Assembly (NCBI GenBank): GCA_021801345.1
Contig: JAJYYA010000066.1
Span: 1-64,000 of the forward strand
Reading direction: 5' to 3'
Source of the DNA: Nitrospirota bacterium
GTDB taxonomy: Bacteria; Nitrospirota; Leptospirillia; Leptospirillales; Leptospirillaceae
DNA: 64,000 nt
A program made the translations under genes and the position numbers. Positions 42,347 to 51,455 of the stretch are shown piece by piece. Position 1 is the first letter of the stretch. Every line of letters begins with the position of its first letter. Under the pieces are notes generated by a model that saw only the letters and a program-made list of their open reading frames with translations, did not search any database and was not told the DNA's origin.

Positions 42347-42583
42347 GTGGCTCAAAGCGGTCAGAAGGGGATCGTCGGCTACTGGCTGAACGCAGCGTTC
42401 TCGGCTGTCGGTAGCGGCTCGGTCGTTGGTTTTTGTCTTCAGGAATGGTTTGGTGCGCACCGGTTCGAAACCTGGCGCGAGTCGTATGTCTGGATCTACT
42501 GGATCATGGTCCTGACCACCATTGCCGGAGCGCTCATTGGTCTTTATTCCTATTCATACCACCGGAAGCGCGAAAACTGGTAG
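42347..42583 (+). CDS. Small membrane protein of the respiratory cluster (78 residues)
   Basis: One or two hydrophobic segments: 'WLNAAFSAVGSGSVVGFCLQ' and 'WIYWIMVLTTIAGALIGLYS', separated by a tryptophan-rich loop, with a basic C-terminus. I do not recognise it. AAAGGGGG lies seven bases before the GTG at 42347. Being first after the promoter, it is probably an accessory subunit of the cytochrome complex encoded just downstream. Confidence 0.8.
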   Translation: MAQSGQKGIVGYWLNAAFSAVGSGSVVGFCLQEWFGAHRFETWRESYVWIYWIMVLTTIAGALIGLYSYSYHRKRENW

Positions 42584-42631
42584 GTTTTGGGTTTTCAGGA
42601 TGCTTTTTTCAAATTTTAAGGAGGTGGTGGT

Positions 42632-42889
42632 ATGTGGATGTTGAATGCGATCACAAGTTTGACCCCCCAGCAGTTGAAGGATCTGTCGAATCCTGGTGAT
42701 CCGACTCATGTGCTTCCTTCGCAGTATGGGTTTTGTTGCGGAATGACCCCGGGAGGGGCAAGCTCGGGCGTGGCCTCGTTTGCCGCCGCCATGGGAACGG
42801 CCTCGGCCATCGGAAGCCTTGTTCTTCTTCTCGTCTGCATGTCGGGATTGGCCGGCCGGGCGAAGTTCGATCCGTCTCGCAAAAAGTAG
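42632..42889 (+). CDS. Small membrane protein of the respiratory cluster (85 residues)
   Basis: A short N-terminal extramembrane part with 'SLTPQQLKDLSNPGDP' and a vicinal cysteine pair ('YGFCCGMTPGG'), then one alanine-rich helix ('MGTASAIGSLVLLLVCMSGL') and a basic tail. AAGGAGGTGG precedes the ATG. No known family comes to mind. The Cys pair could bind a metal or redox cofactor, which is speculation. Confidence 0.78.
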   Translation: MWMLNAITSLTPQQLKDLSNPGDPTHVLPSQYGFCCGMTPGGASSGVASFAAAMGTASAIGSLVLLLVCMSGLAGRAKFDPSRKK

Positions 42890-43027
42890 GGACTGTTTTA
42901 TCGGTGGATGGGGGATCTCACGCCGATATCCCCTTATCTGGGGGCACGGTCTTTAAGACCGCTGCCTGATTGTTCCCCGCATATCGGTGGGACAGAGTAA
43001 AACTCAAGATCGTTTAAGGAGTGCGAG

Positions 43028-43558
43028 ATGGCATTTCGCGAGTACAAGTTTGGCGTGATGATGACCGGAACAATTTTTGCTGTGACGATGTCCATTACCG
43101 TGTTGTTCCCTGCCATGCAGATGAGCAAGGTTCCCCCGTCTGCGACCGCCATCCAGAAGGCCAAGGACTACGGCCCGGAAAGCGGATTCACGATCGAAGA
43201 TCCTTTCATGACCGGCGACAACCGGCCGACCATGATCGGTAAGGGGAAGGTGATCTTTGTTCGCGAAGGGTGCTGGTGGTGCCATACGCTCCTTCCGGAG
43301 CAGACCCAGGACTGGCAGTACTTCGGTGCGCCTCCCCGGGTTTCCGACTTCGTGGGCGAATCTCCGACGGTGTTCGGCTCCGACCGGAAGGCTCCCGACC
43401 TTCTCCACGTGGGATCGCGCCTCCCGATCAAGGGATGGCATCTTGTTCACCACGCCAATCCCCGCGCGGTTCAGCCCATGTCCCAGATGCCCTCGTTCAA
43501 CTATCTTTCCAAGAAAGATCTGAACGCCTTGGCAGACTACATGATGAGCCTCAAGTAG
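43028..43558 (+). CDS. CcoO-like membrane-bound monoheme cytochrome c
   Basis: 176 residues. An N-terminal anchor (about 9-28) precedes a periplasmic domain that follows CcoO of cbb3 oxidases closely: 'IFVREGCWWCH' (heme site C82-H86), 'ESPTVFGSDRKAPDLLHVGS', 'WHLVHHANPRAVQPMSQMPS' with the axial Met. CcoO passes electrons to the catalytic subunit CcoN. It is shorter than standard CcoO (about 200 residues) because of a reduced N-terminal region. AAGGAG lies six bases upstream. The usual partner CcoN is not adjacent. Confidence 0.88.
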   Translation: MAFREYKFGVMMTGTIFAVTMSITVLFPAMQMSKVPPSATAIQKAKDYGPESGFTIEDPFMTGDNRPTMIGKGKVIFVREGCWWCHTLLPEQTQDWQYFGAPPRVSDFVGESPTVFGSDRKAPDLLHVGSRLPIKGWHLVHHANPRAVQPMSQMPSFNYLSKKDLNALADYMMSLK

Positions 43559-43674
43559 GGTAAAATGTGTCGGGTCCCCGGCCAAAAAGCTCGGGGACTC
43601 ATCTGATAATCGATTCGTCAGGCGCTGTCGACTTGAGAGTCGAGAGGCCTCATTGATCCGAAAGGAGTGGCGTA

Positions 43675-44007
43675 ATGGCCGATACTGAAGAGCTTCTTAA
43701 CATGCGATTCGACGGGATGCTCGAAGGAACGAACAATGTTCCCGGCATCATCATTCTTCTCCTAGTCATGGTTGTGGTGACGGCCGAGCTTCTGACCTTT
43801 CCGCTTTTCGGCGCCCGTCCCCAGCTTCCCGGGAACCTGCACTTCTGGATCGTTCAGGGTGCTCCTGTCCTGAAGGCCCACACCTCCCCCAACTTCGCCC
43901 GTCCGTGGTGGGACCAGGGGTATGTGGTCAACTCGATCTACGTTTCGATCTTCTTTACCTGGGTCGGTCTTCTGATGAAGCGAACGGAAGTTGCCCGCGA
44001 CTTCTAG
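43675..44007 (+). CDS. Two-helix membrane protein of the respiratory cluster (110 residues)
   Basis: Hydrophobic segments at about 25-45 ('IIILLLVMVVVTAELLTFPL') and 85-103 ('VNSIYVSIFFTWVGLLM') bracket a periplasm-like loop ending 'NFARPWWDQGY'. The loop has several prolines and tryptophans, as in oxidase accessory subunits. Not recognised by family. AAAGGAG precedes the ATG by eight bases. Intergenic spacing of about 115 bases on each side is larger than elsewhere in the window. Confidence 0.78.
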   Translation: MADTEELLNMRFDGMLEGTNNVPGIIILLLVMVVVTAELLTFPLFGARPQLPGNLHFWIVQGAPVLKAHTSPNFARPWWDQGYVVNSIYVSIFFTWVGLLMKRTEVARDF

Positions 44008-44087
44008 TCACTGGCCGTCGCTTGTGTGGCGGTGGCTTTGAGGGCCTTCCTCTTTGAATAATCACAATCCAAAGGGAGGTGAGTCCT

Positions 44088-44192
44088 TTGTGGAATGTCA
44101 ATAGTCCTATCGTGTTCTGGTGCATTGCTTTGACCATGCTTTTCTCAGCACTCATCTACTCCTTCTTTATCGATGACGTGAAGCCCGAGTAA
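44088..44192 (+). CDS. 34-residue single-helix membrane protein
   Basis: A tiny gene with a strong ribosome site (AAAGGGAGGTGAG, 7-8 bases before the start) and a TTG start at 44088; the frame reads MWNVNSPIVFWCIALTML and then a hydrophobic stretch ending with charged 'DDVKPE' and TAA. It has one membrane helix and sits just before the terminator of the first transcript. Very small single-helix subunits are common in cbb3 and other heme-copper complexes (CcoQ-like), which I consider its likeliest nature. Confidence 0.68.
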   Translation: MWNVNSPIVFWCIALTMLFSALIYSFFIDDVKPE

Positions 44193-44245
44193 GGGTCAGC
44201 CCATCGGTCAGGAAGTCTGGCGGAGATTCTCCGTATACATAAAAG

Positions 44246-44284
44246 GGCGGTTTCCTCACGGATTCCGCCTTTTTTGTTTTTTTT
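44246..44284 (+). terminator. Rho-independent terminator
   Basis: GGCGG..TCC and GGA..CCGCC form a stem around TCAC, followed by TTTTTTG and TTTTTTT. It closes the transcript of the genes at 42347-44192; the following genes need read-through or their own promoter. Confidence 0.85.
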
Positions 44285-44334
44285 AGTTGCAGGCCCGATG
44301 GTGGGGGTGTACAATCGGTCCATGAGGTGGATGT

Positions 44335-44541
44335 ATGTCTATTAAAATGTCTGTTTCCGTTGTTATCTTTACCTTTCTCTCCGCATCGGTGATCACCTTT
44401 ACCATCATGTCCCGATATATCATCGGACCCTTCAAAAAGCTTAAGCGTGGAGAACAGGTCATCATCGCCATGAGCTTTGTCGGCATCATAAGCGTGATCT
44501 CCTTTGCCGTCATACAGCTTCTCTTGCGAATCCTGGTGTAG
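44335..44541 (+). CDS. Small two-helix membrane protein (68 residues)
   Basis: Two hydrophobic helices ('VVIFTFLSASVITFTIMSRY' and 'IIAMSFVGIISVISFAVIQL') joined by a basic loop 'GPFKKLKRGE'. Unrecognised. It begins after the terminator and ends seven bases before the NorC-like cytochrome gene, so it likely opens that second transcription unit. There is no strong ribosome site before the ATG. Confidence 0.65.
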   Translation: MSIKMSVSVVIFTFLSASVITFTIMSRYIIGPFKKLKRGEQVIIAMSFVGIISVISFAVIQLLLRILV

Positions 44542-44548
44542 CGTCCCG

Positions 44549-44980
44549 ATGAAAACCGGTGAAAAAGTCGTCTTTCTTCTGGCGGGATTGATGGTCTTGT
44601 CCGCGATGGTTCTCTACGTGCTGGCCCGTATGCATATGGTGACCTTCTGGACGACGAACGACGTCTATCTCTTCAGCAAGAAGTCGGCGGCAGGGTACGA
44701 AGTCTTCGAAAAATACTCCTGCCGCGATTGCCATGTGGTCTACGGAGAGGGGGACTACGATGGTCCGGACATGGACGGGGAGGGGACGCGCAGAACGGCC
44801 GCCTGGCTCCATTCCTATCTCAACGATCCGGGATCGCTTGTACCGGGAACGGCGCATAGCGGAAAGTTCGCCCCGACCTTTGACAAGATCTCTCCAGCCG
44901 AGAAAGAGAAGCTGGTCGACCTCATGATGAGCCTGAAATCTCTTCCGGGCTCTCCCAACTATCCAAAACCACCCAAATAG
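44549..44980 (+). CDS. NorC-like membrane-anchored monoheme cytochrome c
   Basis: 143 residues: an N-terminal helix (about 7-25), then a heme site 'SCRDCHVVYGEGDYDGPDM' (C58-H62). The 'C.DCH...GEG.Y..PD' spacing is that of NorC, the electron-entry subunit of nitric oxide reductase, and of related cytochromes in cbb3-like complexes. The tail 'KEKLVDLMMSLKSLPG' is the usual closing helix. The ATG at 44549 is chosen because the helix follows it directly; the frame extends upstream into the previous gene. Confidence 0.85.
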   Translation: MKTGEKVVFLLAGLMVLSAMVLYVLARMHMVTFWTTNDVYLFSKKSAAGYEVFEKYSCRDCHVVYGEGDYDGPDMDGEGTRRTAAWLHSYLNDPGSLVPGTAHSGKFAPTFDKISPAEKEKLVDLMMSLKSLPGSPNYPKPPK

Positions 44981-45023
44981 CCGCCATTCCGGAGAGAGCC
45001 CCGGGTCGCGCAAGGAGAAAAAG

Positions 45024-45242
45024 ATGAAGCTGCCAGAGGGGATCGTCGCATATCTGTGGACTGCTACGGGTCTTGTATCGCTCGTGATCATCGTCTTCGG
45101 GATCTACTGGTCCTACAAGAATGGTCAGTTCGACGAAAACATCAAATACATCATCTTTAACGAAGAGGACGGAGACGCCAAGACCCCGCCTCACGAACAT
45201 GGCTCCGACTCGGCCACAACGCCCAAGAGCCATACTCCCTGA
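45024..45242 (+). CDS. ccoS: Cbb3-type oxidase assembly protein CcoS
   Basis: 72 residues: one membrane helix ('ATGLVSLVIIVFGIYWSY') followed by 'KNGQFDENIKYIIFNEEDGD', which corresponds to the CcoS pattern of 'SGQFDDLEGPA..ILFDDD'. CcoS is needed to insert heme b and copper into CcoN. The extra His/Thr-rich C-terminus is unusual. AAGGAG lies close upstream of the ATG. Confidence 0.8.
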   Translation: MKLPEGIVAYLWTATGLVSLVIIVFGIYWSYKNGQFDENIKYIIFNEEDGDAKTPPHEHGSDSATTPKSHTP

Positions 45243-45266
45243 TCGGCTCATAAGGAACCGCCCTCG

Positions 45267-45707
45267 ATGAAAAAGAAATTGAACCCTGCCGCCGCCTTTA
45301 TGGGAGTCGGGGCGGGCCTCCTGTTGTTTTTTGCGGGAGATCGCCTGCTCGGACTGACCAACGGGGCCTTCCATCATATTTTCGGAACGGGCATTCTCTT
45401 CTCCTATCTCCTGGCTCCTCTGGTCGTCTCCTTTGTCACCGGATACATTGCCGGGCCATTCGGGAAGTTCCTGGGCCCCATTCCTCCCATGGCCTATCTT
45501 CTCTTCTCGTATCTCTACGAGGTCTATCACCCTTCGGGGATGACGGTGGGGATACCGGTCGCTCCCTTCATGATGATCTTTTTCATTACCGTTCCCGAGG
45601 TCTCTTTCCTCGGAGGATATGTAGGCGAGGTCCTCCGGAGAAGAAGAGGGGCTCGAGGGACATCTCCCGCCACGCCAAAGCCTCGCGGTCCGGAACGGAT
45701 CTCCTGA
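45267..45707 (+). CDS. Membrane protein with about four helices (146 residues)
   Basis: Hydrophobic stretches around 8-25, 38-60, 72-88 and 92-112, with a basic C-terminal tail ('EVLRRRRGARG'). It starts 24 bases after ccoS and ends about 25 bases before the inferred omega-RNA of the IscB element. I do not recognise the family. The insertion immediately downstream separates it from the rest of the cluster. Confidence 0.75.
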   Translation: MKKKLNPAAAFMGVGAGLLLFFAGDRLLGLTNGAFHHIFGTGILFSYLLAPLVVSFVTGYIAGPFGKFLGPIPPMAYLLFSYLYEVYHPSGMTVGIPVAPFMMIFFITVPEVSFLGGYVGEVLRRRRGARGTSPATPKPRGPERIS

Positions 45708-45732
45708 CTCTCCACCATTTTTTGAGGTGCCA

Positions 45733-46010
45733 GTCAACCACCCCGCCGTGAACGGCGGAGCTTGAAAGGAGGTTCTTTTTAGCTCGGGTTGACCAGGGAA
45801 AGCGGTATCCAACCCGCTACGTTGCGTACAGGTCCAAGACCCACCGGCGGATGCTTCCTCAGTCCGCCGCGCTGGAAGTCCCGGATGCAGACAACCGCGA
45901 GGGCAAGGACGAAACGGTCCGGGGACAATACGCCGGTACGCACCCTTCCCGAGGGGAGACGCTTCGCAGGAAGCGCGTTTCAAGGCCCGTAAGGGCGATT
46001 TAAAAAGGAG
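45733..46010 (+). ncRNA. Omega-RNA (HEARO-type guide RNA scaffold) of IscB
   Basis: The 300 bases upstream of iscB hold no gene but are highly structured. GTCAACC (45733-45739) pairs with GGTTGAC (45787-45793); inside lie a perfect CCGCCGT-GA-ACGGCGG hairpin (45743-45758) and an AGCT..AAAG / CTTT..AGCT stem. After 'CCAGGGAAAGCGG', more stems follow, including GGCGGA/TCCGCC-type pairs (about 45851-45875), GCTTC/GAAGC and GGCCC/GGGC near the 3' end. Location, orientation and the 'GACCAGGGAAAGCGG' core fit HEARO/omega-RNAs. The guide would be the roughly 16 bases just before 45733. Ends are approximate. Confidence 0.7.
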
Positions 46011-46018
46011 AACCCTGC

Positions 46019-47398
46019 ATGGCCGTATTTGTTTTGGACAAGAGAAAGAAGCCGCTCATGCCGTGCTCGGAGAAACGGGCAAGGCTTCTGCTGGAACGGA
46101 AGAAGGCGGTGGTCCACAAGATCGCCCCCTTCACGATCCGACTCAAGGAGCGGGTCGGTGGTGCGGTCCAGCCGGTGCGGATCAAGATCGATCCGGGATC
46201 GAAGACCACCGGGATCGCCGTGGTCTGGGAAGAGACGACCGTCTCCCCAAAGACGGGAGAGGTGGAGACGACCGCCCATGTCCTCTTCCTGGCGGAACTG
46301 CACCACCGGGGCGGAGCGATCCGGGACCGGCTGACCGCCCGGAGAGCCTTCAGAAGACGACGACGGTCGAAGCTTCGCCACCGGGCTCCCCGCTTCGACA
46401 ACCGGACAAGGCCGGAGGGTTGCCTTCCGCCCTCCCTCCAGCACCGGGTCGACACGACCGGGGCCTGGGTGGAACGGCTTCGCCGTCTCGCCCCCGTGTC
46501 CGGCATGAGCCAGGAACTGGTCCGGTTCGACATGCAGAAGGTGGAAAATCCGGAGATTTCCGGAGCCGAGTATCAGCAGGGGTTGCTCGCCGGGTACGAG
46601 GTCCGGGAGTATCTGCTGGAGACGTGGGGCCGGACCTGCACCTATTGCGGGAAGACGGACGTTCCTCTGGAGATCGATCACATCCATCCCCGGTCGAAGG
46701 GCGGATCGGACCGGATTTCCAACCTGACGCTCTCCTGCCGTCCATGCAACGAGAAGAAGGGAAATCGCTTGGTCGAGGCATTTCTGGCCAAGAAGCCGGA
46801 GGCTCTCAAAAAGATCCTCTCCCTGGCCAAGGCCCCCCTCCGGGATGCCGCCGCCGTCAACTCGACCCGATGGGCCTTGTTCCGGTCATTGACACAAACG
46901 GGTCTTCCCGTCGAGACGGGTTCCGGAGGACGGACGAAGTGGAACCGGACCCGGCTCGGACTCCCGAAGACCCATTCTCTTGATGCGGCTTGCGTTGGAG
47001 ACGTGGACCGTATTGAGGGCGGGAACCGTCCCGTTCTGAGCATAAAGGCCACGGGACGGGGGAGCTACCAGCGGACCCGCCTCGATGCCTTCGGGTTCCC
47101 GAGGGGGTTCCTCACCCGGAAAAAAGCCCACTTTGGATTTACGACCGGGGATCTGGTCCGGGCCGTTGTGACGACGGGCAAGAAGATCGGCACCTATGTC
47201 GGACGGGTGGCCGTCCGGGCTTCGGGGAGTTTCAACCTTCAAGACGGATCGGTGCTGGTTCAGGGGATTTCTCACAAGGTTTGCCGGCTTCTTCAGAGAG
47301 CCGACGGATACGGGTATTCATTGGCAACGTCCAACAGAAAGGAGAGCGCATCCCTCCCCTCCGTAAACGGAGGGGTCTCCAGTGCGCGCATAGGATGA
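46019..47398 (+). CDS. iscB: IscB RNA-guided nuclease (RuvC plus HNH)
   Basis: 459 residues, the ancestor-like relative of Cas9. The N-terminal PLMP domain reads 'VLDKRKKPLMPCSEKRARLL'; RuvC-I is 'VRIKIDPGSKTTGIAVVW'; an arginine-rich bridge helix follows ('RRAFRRRRRSKLRHRAPRF'); HNH starts near C207 with 'CTYCGKTDVPLEIDHIHPRS' and 'NLTLSCRPCNEKKGN'; RuvC-III is 'THSLDAACVG'. All catalytic residues appear intact, so it is probably active. AAAGGAG lies nine bases before the ATG. The C-terminus is encoded across the right-end hairpin, and its stop overlaps the next gene's ATG (ATGA). Confidence 0.93.
   Translation: MAVFVLDKRKKPLMPCSEKRARLLLERKKAVVHKIAPFTIRLKERVGGAVQPVRIKIDPGSKTTGIAVVWEETTVSPKTGEVETTAHVLFLAELHHRGGAIRDRLTARRAFRRRRRSKLRHRAPRFDNRTRPEGCLPPSLQHRVDTTGAWVERLRRLAPVSGMSQELVRFDMQKVENPEISGAEYQQGLLAGYEVREYLLETWGRTCTYCGKTDVPLEIDHIHPRSKGGSDRISNLTLSCRPCNEKKGNRLVEAFLAKKPEALKKILSLAKAPLRDAAAVNSTRWALFRSLTQTGLPVETGSGGRTKWNRTRLGLPKTHSLDAACVGDVDRIEGGNRPVLSIKATGRGSYQRTRLDAFGFPRGFLTRKKAHFGFTTGDLVRAVVTTGKKIGTYVGRVAVRASGSFNLQDGSVLVQGISHKVCRLLQRADGYGYSLATSNRKESASLPSVNGGVSSARIG
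47356..47375. repeat. Right-end hairpin of the IscB element
   Basis: CCCCTCCGT and ACGGAGGGG form a perfect nine-base inverted repeat around AA, inside the last codons of iscB. It mirrors the left-end hairpin at 45743-45758, with which it shares the CCGT-nA-ACGG core. Confidence 0.8.
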
Positions 47399-47970
47399 AG
47401 AACGAATCACTCTCCGAATCTGCCAGCAGCTCGACCGATCAGCTGGGCCTCCGATTTATTCTGTTCGGGGTCTTTTGTCTTTTCGTGGGAACGATGCAGG
47501 GATTTCTTCAGTCGACTCCACGGATTCGTCACTGGATCCATATGACCGGTCAGGCGGGACACCTCGTCGACCCCTTGGCCCATGCCCACATCAATCTGAT
47601 CGGCGGGGTGGTCTCCGTCGTCATGGCAATGGTCTACTACCTCCTTCCCCGTCTTTCGGGAAAGAAGATCTGGAGTCCCTTTCTTGGAGAGATGAGCTTT
47701 TTCTTCATGGTGGCGGGCGTGATCGGATTCTACTCCGTACTTCTGACCTTCGGCATCCTCGAGGGAAACCGGATGCTTGCCCAGGGGATCGTCTACCCCC
47801 TGGCGCGAGCCGTCTACCAGCCCTACCACCGGATCGGCTTCGTTCTGGCGGCCCTCTTCATGGGGATCGGCCACTGGACCTTTGTGTGGAATGTTTTCGC
47901 GACGGTTCTCTCGCGGGACAAGAATGCTGTCATTGAAAGGACTCCCGCTCCGGCAAAGGAAAGGATTTAG
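47395..47970 (+). CDS. Short CcoN-like membrane protein, paralogue 1 (191 residues)
   Basis: About four helices. 'HAHINLIGGVVSVVMAMVYY' followed by 'LLPRLSGKKIW' and a later 'YQPYHRIGFVLAALFMGIGH' resemble the heme-binding helices of heme-copper oxidase subunit I, but the protein is under half the normal length and I find no full set of copper-site histidines. It resembles the product of 49161-49748. The ATG at 47395 overlaps the IscB stop. It could be a cytochrome b-type subunit or a split remnant of subunit I. Confidence 0.72.
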   Translation: MKNESLSESASSSTDQLGLRFILFGVFCLFVGTMQGFLQSTPRIRHWIHMTGQAGHLVDPLAHAHINLIGGVVSVVMAMVYYLLPRLSGKKIWSPFLGEMSFFFMVAGVIGFYSVLLTFGILEGNRMLAQGIVYPLARAVYQPYHRIGFVLAALFMGIGHWTFVWNVFATVLSRDKNAVIERTPAPAKERI

Positions 47971-47975
47971 GCAGA

Positions 47976-49103
47976 ATGGACGATTTGAAAGACTCTCGCG
48001 AAGGCTCTCCCTCTGAAAGCACCGATGAAGCCAATCGCAAGAAAATGACGACCAGCGACGACGACGATCTTGCCCCGAACGAGATGTCCCCGTGGCAGCT
48101 TCCGTGGAAGGCCATCGCCATCACGATCGTTCTTCTGATTCTGATTGCCGGGGCCGTTCACGTGGTCGGACTGGCCTCGAACCGCATCGTGCGCCTCTCG
48201 ACGGCCTCCGTGCGAAAGCACGGGGCAGAGCCCGGGGAGTTTCGGCCGATGGGAGGGGTGCTGACGGAGGCGCGACCCGGGTCGAAAAATGCCATGATCC
48301 AGAGTGCGGCCTCCAAAAAGCTCGCAGAGGGAAAGGACCTCTCTCCCACGGAGCAGATAAAGGTGGATGCTTCGGGGTATCGGATCCCTCCGGGCTATGT
48401 GCTGATTCCGGCGGGGCCATTTTGGATGGGGGCCGAGGACAGCTTTGCGAACTTTGACGAAAAGCCGATCCACAAGGTCTACCTTCCCCCCTATCTCATC
48501 GAGCGCCATCTCGTGACCAACAGGGAGTACAAGGAGTTTGTGGACAAGCTTCACTATCTCGCTCCGGCCAACTGGAAGACCGGAAGCTATCCCGCTGGGC
48601 GGGGAGACTATCCGGTGACCTTTGTCTCCATGGAAAATGCCCGGGACTATGCGCGGTTTCGCCGGGCCCGACTCTGCACCGAGGAGGAGTGGGAGAAGGC
48701 GGCGCGGGGTCAGGACAAGAGGATGTGGCCCTGGGGGAGCGTCTGGGATCCCCGGCGCGCCAACGCCAACTATACGGTCGGCGACACCTCTCCCGTCAAT
48801 CGCTATCCTATGGGGGCCAGCCCCTACGGAGTGCTCGACATGGCCGGCAACGTCTTCGAGTGGACGAGTTCGCTCTATCGCCCCTATCCGGGGAACACCG
48901 CCAACAAGGCGCGCTTCTTTGCCTACCGGGTCGATGCGACCGGGGCCCTGCACCCGGTGGCCGGTAAAAGCTACTACGTTCTTCGGGGGGGCTCGTGGAA
49001 GAGCGACCAGTATAGTGCCCGCGTGACGGCAAGAAATCCGACGTGGCCGGTTTACGCCTCCGACTTCTTTGGCTTCCGGCTTTGCATGGACGCCCGGAGA
49101 TAG
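47976..49103 (+). CDS. Membrane-anchored SUMF/formylglycine-generating-enzyme-like protein
   Basis: 375 residues. A charged N-terminus and one helix (about 45-66) anchor a periplasmic SUMF domain (about 135-375). Seen motifs: 'YVLIPAGPFWMGAED', 'ERHLVTNREYKEF', 'PVTFVSMENARDYARF', 'RLCTEEEWEKAARG', 'YGVLDMAGNVFEWTSS', 'VLRGGSW' and 'FFGFRLC'. Formylglycine enzymes oxidise a Cys on sulfatases, but many SUMF-fold proteins have other roles; no sulfatase is nearby. Its place between two CcoN-like genes suggests a role in maturation of this complex. It starts five bases after the previous gene. Confidence 0.85.
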   Translation: MDDLKDSREGSPSESTDEANRKKMTTSDDDDLAPNEMSPWQLPWKAIAITIVLLILIAGAVHVVGLASNRIVRLSTASVRKHGAEPGEFRPMGGVLTEARPGSKNAMIQSAASKKLAEGKDLSPTEQIKVDASGYRIPPGYVLIPAGPFWMGAEDSFANFDEKPIHKVYLPPYLIERHLVTNREYKEFVDKLHYLAPANWKTGSYPAGRGDYPVTFVSMENARDYARFRRARLCTEEEWEKAARGQDKRMWPWGSVWDPRRANANYTVGDTSPVNRYPMGASPYGVLDMAGNVFEWTSSLYRPYPGNTANKARFFAYRVDATGALHPVAGKSYYVLRGGSWKSDQYSARVTARNPTWPVYASDFFGFRLCMDARR

Positions 49104-49160
49104 TCTCCGGACTGGGACAGAGGTAAGGATCGTCGCAAGGAAAACTTAGGAGAGAGCGTG

Positions 49161-49748
49161 ATGACCAGGGACGAACGGATCAAGGACTATATCATGAAGT
49201 TCTACTATGCCTGCCTTCTGTATGCGATCATCGGGTTTTCGTGGGGGGCGGTGATGGGCGGAGTGGAGACTTTCCGGAACTTTGTCCAGGCGGGAGCGGG
49301 CGGTCCGTCGGACCTGATCGTCCTCGGACATACGCACATCAATCTTCTGGGATGGGTCGAGATGGCGATCTTCGGCTCCATGTACTACATTGTCCCCCGG
49401 ATCTTCGCCGGTCCTCTTTATAGCTATCGCCTTCTCCGAATCCATTTCTGGATGCACAACATCAGCCTCGTCGGGATGGTCCTGGCCTTCTGTATTGCCG
49501 GCTACAAGGGAGGCATGATCCTCCTTCACGGGAATGTCGCCGACATCAAGCCGGTGGAGGCTCCCTACATGGAGATGGTCGGCATCTTCGGCATTTTCGT
49601 CCTTCTTGCCAACATCATCTTTGCCTACAACATCTACATGACGGTTCAGGTGGCGAAAGGACGGAAAAGCCTTCCGGAAAACGAGCGCGAGGAGAGTGCC
49701 GCGTCACTGGGGGCCTCCGTGGCGACAGCCGGCGAAGGTCGCTCCTAG
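49161..49748 (+). CDS. Short CcoN-like membrane protein, paralogue 2 (195 residues)
   Basis: Four or five helices. 'VLGHTHINLLGWVEMAIFGS', then 'MYYIVPRIFAG', then 'RIHFWMHNISLVGMVLAF' resemble subunit I of heme-copper oxidases or NorB, with several histidines in helices; it parallels the protein at 47395. Again it is far too short to be a complete catalytic subunit. The ATG at 49161 has AGGAGAG seven bases upstream. It ends against the next gene (TAGTG). Confidence 0.74.
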   Translation: MTRDERIKDYIMKFYYACLLYAIIGFSWGAVMGGVETFRNFVQAGAGGPSDLIVLGHTHINLLGWVEMAIFGSMYYIVPRIFAGPLYSYRLLRIHFWMHNISLVGMVLAFCIAGYKGGMILLHGNVADIKPVEAPYMEMVGIFGIFVLLANIIFAYNIYMTVQVAKGRKSLPENEREESAASLGASVATAGEGRS

Positions 49749-50086
49749 TGGGACAGTCCGGAGCTCTCAGGGAGGAGTCCGGGGGAGGGGGGTTTCTTTA
49801 CAAACCCCTTCTGCTGGGTTCACTATGGGGGGGAGGGGCCATTTTTCTTCCGACCCCGGCATGGGCCTATCTTCCCCGATATGTCCACGTCACCCTGGGG
49901 CTTCCCTGGTTCGCCTACCTGTTCTTCCTGCTGGGAATCCTGATACCGGTCTTCCTGTATCTCGGGATTTCCTGGCATTTCAAGCGCGAGCTTGAAAAAC
50001 CGGGCCACAGATCGGGCCCCGGTTCAGGTCTTATTGGCGGCCGAAACGGAGGTCAGGGGAGCCATGACGAGGAAGGGGAGGAGTAG
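49748..50086 (+). CDS. Small membrane protein (112 residues)
   Basis: Two hydrophobic segments: 'LLGSLWGGGAIFLPTPAWAY', ending in a signal-peptidase-like 'AWA', and 'LGLPWFAYLFFLLGILIPVF'. A basic, Gly-rich tail follows. No family recognised. The GTG at 49748 overlaps the preceding stop. Probably another accessory subunit. Confidence 0.65.
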   Translation: MGQSGALREESGGGGFLYKPLLLGSLWGGGAIFLPTPAWAYLPRYVHVTLGLPWFAYLFFLLGILIPVFLYLGISWHFKRELEKPGHRSGPGSGLIGGRNGGQGSHDEEGEE

Positions 50087-50123
50087 GTCCCGTCATCCTT
50101 AAACCCAGCGGGGCTTCTCTTCC

Positions 50124-51455
50124 ATGGAACAAACGCAACCACTCATACCGATGCCGAAGATCGGCAAGTCTTCCCAGAAGGCCACAGGTCTCAGGGTGAC
50201 CCAGGTGCGGACCATCGTTCAGGTGGCCTTCATCGTCGTTCTCGTTCTTCTTCCCTTTACGGGCGTCTTCCATGTCGATCTTTCCACCGGACGATTCGTT
50301 GTCATGGGCTACCAGGTCTGGTGGAGCGACTTCTTCCTCATCCTTCCCTTCTGGATCTTTGTCATCTCGGCCATGACGGCGGTCTATGCGGTTCTCGGCA
50401 TGGTCTACTGCGGATGGGCCTGTCTCCAGAATACCTTTTCCGAGTGGACCAATGCCCTTGCAAAGTTTGCCTTCGGTTCGGCCGCCTTGGGTCCGGGATT
50501 CGGGGAGGTCAGCCTCTCGGCGGCCCGACCCAAAAAGGTCGGCGCCTTGAAAAAGATTGGCCAGTGGACGCTCTTTGTGGGAGGGGTCGCTCTCTTTTCC
50601 CTCCTTGTTTCGGTGATCATCACCGCTTATGTGATCCCTCCGAAGACACTCCTCCACGATCTTCTGACGGGGGCGAGCCCGACCGCCTACTGGCTGGTCC
50701 TGGGGATCGGGGGCGTCATGTTTTTGAACCTCCTGCTCGTCCGTCACTACTGGTGCAAGTGGGTCTGTCCCTATCCCCTCTGGCAGCACATGTTCAAGAC
50801 CGACGATACCCTGAAGGTCGCATTCGACCATGCCCGCCGAGGCGAGTGTACCGGCTGCAATCTCTGTGTGAAGTCCTGCTTCATCGATATCGACCCTCGG
50901 GACACGAAGAACTACTCCCGGTGCATCAACTGCGGAGAGTGCGTGGTCGTCTGTGAGGATTATTCGGCCAAGCGCGGTCTTCCCTCCCTGCTCACCTTCC
51001 ACAAGAACGGCGTCTATGTCGATGGGGAGGGAACCATGAAGGGGCGGCGATTTTCTCCGGGAACGGTCCGCTTTGTTGTCGCCACCGTCTTCAGCCTTGT
51101 TCCTCTGGGGCTTTTTATCTACGGAATCGCGACCTATTCCCCCTACAGGATTACCTTCAGCCAGGTTCCGGGGCGCTTCGACCAGTTCGAGGTGGGGATC
51201 TACAACAAGACTCCTCGAGACGAGCGGTTTGTGATCGGGCAGGAGGGGCTCCCGGCCCCCAGCGTGAAGTTCGCCGAGACGGCGGTGTCGATCCCGCCGG
51301 GAGAGCACCGAAAGATCGTCATGACGGTCGAGCCGGGGGGAGATCTCTCTCCCGGGCTCCACAACTTCAGGGTGGATGTGAAGAGCTTTACTCCCGCGCC
51401 TGGCCGGTTCCGGCAGAATGCCGCGGTCTATATCGTGAACAAGGGGCAGAGGTAG
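50124..51455 (+). CDS. ccoG: CcoG-like iron-sulfur membrane protein
   Basis: 443 residues of the CcoG/RdxA/FixG family, which supports copper delivery to cbb3 oxidases. Membrane segments near 30-50, 70-95 and 150-210; the conserved 'YCGWACLQNTFSEW' and 'HYWCKWVCPYPLWQHMF' loops; two 4Fe-4S motifs, 'CTGCNLCVKSCF' and 'CINCGECVVVCE'; and a C-terminal immunoglobulin-like domain (about 335-443). It closes the respiratory cluster. The ATG at 50124 lacks a strong ribosome site. Confidence 0.88.
   Translation: MEQTQPLIPMPKIGKSSQKATGLRVTQVRTIVQVAFIVVLVLLPFTGVFHVDLSTGRFVVMGYQVWWSDFFLILPFWIFVISAMTAVYAVLGMVYCGWACLQNTFSEWTNALAKFAFGSAALGPGFGEVSLSAARPKKVGALKKIGQWTLFVGGVALFSLLVSVIITAYVIPPKTLLHDLLTGASPTAYWLVLGIGGVMFLNLLLVRHYWCKWVCPYPLWQHMFKTDDTLKVAFDHARRGECTGCNLCVKSCFIDIDPRDTKNYSRCINCGECVVVCEDYSAKRGLPSLLTFHKNGVYVDGEGTMKGRRFSPGTVRFVVATVFSLVPLGLFIYGIATYSPYRITFSQVPGRFDQFEVGIYNKTPRDERFVIGQEGLPAPSVKFAETAVSIPPGEHRKIVMTVEPGGDLSPGLHNFRVDVKSFTPAPGRFRQNAAVYIVNKGQR

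Follow-up and report, generated by a model that had tools for sequence, protein, structure and literature searches.

Two one-third CcoN proteins in the accessory half of a putative dispersed, CcoP-less cbb3-type oxidase of a Leptospirillum relative

In the Leptospirillum literature, the oxidase considered here is called a cbb3 oxidase, and more transcript and protein was recorded for the cbb3 route than for the bc1 route (PMC5772234). In Sideroxydans, the cbb3 gene clusters are of two types, proximal and distal, which differ in subunit composition (PMC8788666). Little is known about how weak electron donors such as Fe(II) and nitrite feed a terminal oxidase. We analyzed a 64,000-nucleotide stretch of DNA from a Leptospirillum relative (Nitrospirota, Leptospirillaceae; assembly GCA_021801345.1, contig JAJYYA010000066.1, positions 1 to 64,000), referred to below as the window. 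Positions 42347-51455 hold fourteen genes, all on the + strand. An initial annotation had described this cluster as CcoO-like and NorC-like cytochromes, CcoS, CcoG and tiny membrane proteins (labeled here s1, s2, s4, s5, s8 and s12) without a full-length CcoN. The open reading frames and profile matches bear out this description, and we confirmed the reading frames and their coordinates. We found that the cluster appears to be the accessory half of a dispersed, CcoP-less cbb3-type oxidase of iron- and nitrite-oxidizing lineages. The unusual part of this dispersed oxidase is a pair of uncharacterized proteins, half1 and half2, each equivalent to one third of CcoN. The arrangement is real and conserved.

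We found that the catalytic subunit is encoded on another contig, as the initial annotation had allowed. There is no full-length CcoN in the window, where the only COX1 matches are the two short proteins. A whole-genome COX1 search gave one full-length match, on contig C31 (24662-26035), in addition to the two short ones. This protein aligns over its full length with the CcoN of the P. stutzeri structure 3mk7 (E 1.7e-63) and keeps the equivalents of H60, H207, Y251, H257, H258, H347 and H349. The columns of the heme and CuB ligands and of the helix-VII Tyr are His or Tyr in all 48 members of the CcoN clade to which it belongs. We therefore take the C31 protein to be a complete cbb3-type CcoN, with every predicted heme and CuB ligand and the helix-VII Tyr present. 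A NorBC nitric oxide reductase was rejected because the sole full-length COX1 protein is CcoN-like and carries the oxidase Tyr. Only one CcoO (PF02433) scored above the cut-off in the genome, and it is the copy in the window. With one full-length CcoN and one CcoO in the genome, the two must be partners. The separation of ccoN from half2 is not an artefact of draft assembly, because a same-family genome on a single contig has ccoN approximately 100 kb away from half2.

Two further observations concern ccoN itself. Three genomes of the genus (G002, G008 and G009) have two or three partial or nearly full-length ccoN copies on separate contigs. The C31 ccoN is followed on its 3' side (L004:6663-11212) by genes for a MoxR/NorQ-like ATPase and then a NorD-like protein, both named by eye from sequence, which are possible assembly factors for metal insertion.

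We found that half1 (47395-47970; 191 amino acids) and half2 (49158-49748; 196 amino acids) resemble only the end of CcoN. Both have four transmembrane (TM) helices. Each matches the 436-position COX1 profile (PF00115) at positions ~306-434 only, with 51 bits against a cut-off of 34.8. In profile-profile comparisons (HHalign) with the three thirds of CcoN, half2 matched the C-terminal third best (1.3e-26), ahead of the N-terminal (3.9e-13) and middle (9.7e-10) thirds; half1 likewise matched the C-terminal third (5.2e-22) and the other two more weakly. The three thirds of CcoN are also related among themselves by profile comparison. These comparisons show each protein to be, as judged from sequence, a four-helix homolog of the last third of CcoN, helices IX-XII. 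The AlphaFold (AF2) model of half2 (predicted local distance difference test score, pLDDT, 89.9) matches CcoN residues ~297-466 only. Compared with residues 297-466 of the CcoN in 9g6b, it gave Z 17.0 with a root-mean-square deviation of 2.9 over 160 residues (Foldseek E 4.3e-5).

Both proteins carry invariant histidines. In half2 (motif HxHINLLGWVEMAIF), H58, H60, H96 and H100 are invariant in 66 of 66 sequences. In half1 (motif GHxxDPLAHAHxN), H56, H63 and H65 are invariant in 32 of 32 sequences from both Nitrospirota and Pseudomonadota, whereas conservation of H145 and H160 is limited to Nitrospirota. The His-x-His pair of each protein aligns with the two heme ligands of CcoN helix X. Neither half1 nor half2 has a counterpart of the helix-II ligand, the CuB ligands, the Tyr, or the ligands on helices VI and VII. 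The distribution of charges suggests that the N terminus lies on the inside and that the His-x-His sits, as it does in CcoN, close to the predicted periplasmic end of TM2; this signal is clear for half2 and weak for half1. Our literature search, whose reach did not extend to the 2008 distal/proximal cbb3 and 2012 Leptospirillum cytochrome papers, returned no description of a four-helix or truncated CcoN-like protein.

The same genes occur together in distant bacteria. We scanned named genomes with a half2 profile, and surveyed 295 Nitrospirota genomes. Matches to half2 came from Zetaproteobacteria, Gallionellales, Candidatus Nitrotoga, Candidatus Tenderia, Chromatiaceae/Ectothiorhodospiraceae metagenome-assembled genomes (MAGs) and one biocathode MAG. 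In the Pseudomonadota the genes form one cluster, in the order norC1-half2-...-ccoN-ccoO-s4-s5-ccoS-norC2-s8-FGE-s12-...-ccoG (FGE, formylglycine-generating enzyme-like), with half1 farther along and a diheme Cyc1-like gene at the edge; Zetaproteobacteria and Nitrotoga are among those whose clusters carry the Cyc1-like gene. Of the 17 Pseudomonadota genomes tested for half1, 16 have it, the exception being a 1.1-Mb genome; where checked, it was on the half2 contig, 14-17 kb away. The position of ccoN separates the two phyla: it lies at most 6.5 kb from half2 in 37 of 41 Pseudomonadota loci (those with at least 6.5 kb of downstream sequence) as against 0 of 16 Nitrospirota loci. In f2, a second Nitrospirota family, the genes are divided between two loci, ccoN-ccoO-s4 and ccoS-norC-s8-half1-FGE-half2...ccoG. 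Half1 and half2 are conserved in both phyla, alongside a full CcoN.

The CcoN proteins of these bacteria are specifically related. In a ccoN tree, the genes from Leptospirillum, family f2 and 42 Pseudomonadota clusters formed one clade (support 100/100) apart from other CcoN. Among the 295 Nitrospirota genomes, both a close CcoN (at least 60% identity) and a half2 ortholog were found only in families f1 and f2, so this co-occurrence rests on statistically few events; other Nitrospirota CcoN had at most 34% identity. As a separate observation, the clusters of Nitrotoga fabula and a Zetaproteobacterium (L145/L147) contain, between s12 and ccoG, a gene for a multi-TM protein of 867-870 amino acids that by eye resembles a spermidine-synthase/MFS fusion; the Leptospirillum cluster showed no such gene.

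The relatives that carry the cluster include Fe(II) oxidizers, nitrite oxidizers and biocathode bacteria. The initial annotation had proposed an electron-transfer complex for iron oxidation at low pH. A link to iron oxidation is plausible given these relatives. A low-pH speciality is unsupported because most of the relatives are, as we take it from general knowledge, neutrophilic or marine.

The gene order of the cluster is kept gene for gene in same-family relatives whose contigs span it, and therefore the arrangement is not due to chance. The ccoO-like gene (43028-43558) encodes a monoheme cytochrome c subunit of 176 amino acids (PF02433, FixO; 65.8 bits, cut-off 29.6) with a CxxCH at residue 82. 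Pseudomonadota CcoO proteins are 311-321 amino acids long (L107:16166-17131, L117:13875-14810) compared with 176 in the window, and have a long insertion separating the TM helix from the heme domain. The published forward primer of a quantitative PCR assay for "cbb3" (PMC6695575) has one mismatch to the ccoO ortholog in close relatives and three in the window. Farther along are the gene for a NorC-like, membrane-anchored monoheme cytochrome c (44552-44980; 142 amino acids; PF00034, 33.4 bits; CxxCH at residue 57) and a CcoS-like gene (45024-45242; 72 amino acids), which is in the same place in relatives and matches PF03597 (FixS) with 20.1 bits, just below the cut-off of 23.1. The last gene (50124-51455) encodes a CcoG/RdxA-like polyferredoxin, with Fer4_18 and Fer4_5 above cut-off and FixG_C below it (20.7 bits, cut-off 25.6).

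Seven small proteins of 68-146 amino acids in the cluster have predicted TM helices. Family-profile searches gave no family name for s1, s2, s4, s5, s8 or s12. The first of these, s1 (42347-42583; 78 amino acids), is kept in Leptospirillum relatives and is followed by s2 (42632-42889; 85 amino acids). The gene for s4 (43675-44007; 110 amino acids, 2 TM) follows ccoO, as it does next to ccoN in family f2 and in the vicinity of ccoN in Pseudomonadota. The others are s5 (44335-44541; 68 amino acids, 2 TM), the multi-TM s8 (45267-45707; 146 amino acids), which is directly 5' of half1 in Nitrospirota or of FGE in Pseudomonadota, and s12 (49748-50086; 112 amino acids).

We classified the oxidase, from its apparent subunit content, as a CcoP-less variant rather than a canonical cbb3 oxidase, because CcoP is absent both from the genome and from the clusters of this CcoN clade as read in relatives. 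No protein in the genome came near the TIGR00782 cut-off of 179.95 (best, 32.1 bits). Two Cyc1-like diheme proteins are encoded elsewhere in the genome. A profile search for FixH/CcoH gave no match.

The FGE-like protein, encoded between half1 and half2 (47976-49103) and not mentioned in the initial annotation, is membrane-anchored and matches PF03781 with 162.9 bits. RGGSWKSDQYSA occupies the place of the catalytic copper-binding Cys pair. In an alignment of 47 rows, the first Cys is missing in 43 (4 of these being gaps) and the second is present in 0. Lacking the catalytic Cys pair, the protein does not qualify as a formylglycine-generating enzyme, and we read it as a putative periplasmic structural domain.

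We consider it fairly probable that the locus encodes the noncatalytic subunits and assembly factors of the single cbb3 oxidase of this Leptospirillum relative, an enzyme that has its CcoN on another contig, lacks CcoP and contains a heme b-binding relay made of half1 and half2. The complex would comprise CcoN, CcoO, the NorC-like cytochrome, the FGE-like periplasmic domain without its Cys pair, small TM subunits, half1 and half2. Half1 and half2 would be stable, noncatalytic subunits, belonging either to the oxidase or to a partner module of the same chain, and would be located within or beside the CcoN-CcoO complex. In CcoN, the low-spin heme b is held by a His of helix II and a His of helix X, which are equivalent helices of two different four-helix units. 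Because CcoN holds its heme from two such units, we infer that the TM2 His of half1 and half2, paired or in a larger ring, could grip a heme b between subunits. This heme would hand electrons from periplasmic NorC-like and Cyc1-like cytochromes to CcoO/CcoN, and these high-potential cytochromes would in turn receive electrons from Fe(II), nitrite or an electrode. Unstudied conserved subunits that travel with one cbb3 clade in iron oxidizers, nitrite oxidizers and biocathode bacteria are concrete candidates for the point of electron entry.

Several points weigh against this reading. Heme binding, complex formation and electron transfer by half1 and half2 are all proposed from motif, fold and neighborhood. 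The half1 model is moderate (pLDDT 79, built from 16 sequences; Foldseek E > 0.02), and its Z of 12-13 is near the level of chance matches between helical bundles, although its top structure matches are all heme-copper oxidases or nitric oxide reductases. In Sideroxydans ES-1, distal ccoN and ccoO were up on thiosulfate and not on Fe(II) (PMC8788666), the distal subtype there being unconfirmed as a member of this clade. Finally, family f2 has its half1/half2 module at a distance from ccoN, and the two proteins may therefore form a separate partner complex.

Such a complex, made of half1, half2, the NorC-like cytochrome, s8 and the FGE-like protein, might cooperate with the oxidase, for example as a periplasmic cytochrome-to-membrane electron relay or a sensor of NO or O2. 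The f2 module is its own locus away from ccoN-ccoO-s4, and standalone single-third proteins occur in many Nitrospirota, both in favor of this idea. However, in Pseudomonadota a single cluster holds these genes interspersed with ccoN-ccoO, and none of the 295 genomes surveyed has a half2 ortholog or a member of the CcoN clade outside families f1 and f2. We think a separate complex unlikely.

Half1 and half2 might instead be purely structural supernumerary subunits that inherited the four-helix fold, pack on CcoN and bind no heme. They always accompany the CcoN clade in the genomes examined and lack most heme-copper oxidase ligands, both consistent with a structural role. Yet a scaffold would not need a His-x-His that is invariant in two phyla (66 half2 and 32 half1 sequences) at the position of the helix-X heme ligands, and this makes a heme-free role doubtful.

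The split CcoN or non-oxidase complex that the initial annotation suggested for the two short proteins fits the absence of ccoN from the window and the two COX1-like halves in one cluster, but joint replacement of CcoN is extremely improbable and was rejected on sequence, as both proteins equal the same third, without CuB ligands, Tyr or helix-II His, and an intact CcoN is encoded elsewhere in the genome and beside half1 and half2 in Pseudomonadota. A decayed operon with lingering CcoN fragments, to which the missing ccoN and the inserted IscB gene might point, has hardly any probability and was rejected on gene conservation: all genes are open and syntenic across the genus at high identity, the motifs are invariant across phyla, an origin of half2 as an offshoot of the neighboring CcoN clade is rejected (below), and the "cbb3" expression assays published for L. 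ferriphilum seem to have targeted the ortholog of this ccoO. The initial annotation had held that a ccoN adjoining a further copy of the cluster genes would mark the cluster as accessory or relic; such copies exist in other organisms and the cluster is accessory, but it is not a relic because its genes are intact and strongly conserved.

The inserted element, also new relative to the initial annotation, interrupts the cluster between s8 and half1 at ~45733-47398. It consists of a HEARO (IscB guide/omega) RNA (45733-45964, + strand; RF02033, 97.3 bits, gathering threshold 83) and an IscB gene (46019-47398; NF040563, 449.9 bits, cut-off 175), the stop codon of which overlaps the start of half1 (ATGA). 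The profile match together with the upstream RNA identifies the product as a predicted IscB RNA-guided nuclease; the element is not part of the oxidase. Most relatives lack an IscB gene at this site. In L051, another genome of the genus, the junction does hold a related IscB (71% identity over the C-terminal portion that is visible); the remaining relatives with contigs across the junction have none.

We also compared the one-third proteins in trees of four-helix units. Half1, half2 and a standalone single-third family formed separate lineages, and the C-terminal thirds of all CcoN grouped together without them. An origin of half2 as a fragment of the neighboring CcoN clade was rejected in approximately unbiased tests (p-AU 0.011; half2 with half1, 0.0085) and the same constraint on half1 alone was not (p-AU 0.21), all on short alignments with long-branch warnings. 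The standalone family, COX1-like proteins mostly of 132-147 amino acids with the motif HxHxN(L/M)LGW...GYHILPRF, is widespread in Nitrospirota (L037:6163-6561, L038:8600-9010, L178-L197). No oxidase gene was seen adjoining these genes where their surroundings were read.

A more speculative proposal, which we hold only very tentatively and consider improbable, is that half1, half2 and the 132-147-amino-acid family are free-living single thirds of the heme-copper oxidase core and have kept the ability to bind heme between subunits through the TM2 His-x-His, like the presumed triplicated unit. Two of them would have been recruited by Leptospirillum, Nitrotoga and Zetaproteobacteria as a membrane heme relay carrying high-potential electrons to a CcoP-less cbb3 oxidase. 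If the core thirds are indeed free-standing, the proposed origin of the 12-helix core by triplication of a four-helix heme-binding unit could be tested directly on small proteins.

The components of this locus both resemble and depart from described systems. The FGE-like protein belongs to the fold family of FGE/SUMF1 (PF03781) but lacks the copper-binding catalytic Cys pair and has an N-terminal membrane anchor. Half1 and half2 share the fold and the helix-X His-x-His of the C-terminal third (helices IX-XII) of CcoN/NorB; unlike that third, they are free-standing, have an HxHxN motif, and lack the other two thirds and their ligands. The distal cbb3 subtype of Fe(II) oxidizers is likewise carried by Zetaproteobacteria and Gallionellaceae, with subunits said to differ from those of the proximal type (PMC8788666, PMC7029218, PMC10734462). 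Descriptions of the subtype in these papers, which cite Ducluzeau 2008 for it, include neither four-TM subunits nor an FGE-like subunit. In our ccoN tree, which does not contain the Ducluzeau 2008 reference sequences, the Zetaproteobacteria and Nitrotoga genes fall in a distinct clade. Like the canonical cbb3 oxidase (heme-copper family C; CcoNOP, 3mk7), the system described here has a CcoN with all ligands and the helix-VII Tyr (on C31), a CcoO, and CcoS- and CcoG-like factors. In contrast to the canonical enzyme, its ccoN is detached from the operon, CcoP is absent, and a NorC-like cytochrome, an FGE-like protein, many small TM proteins and two four-TM proteins equivalent to a third of CcoN have been added.

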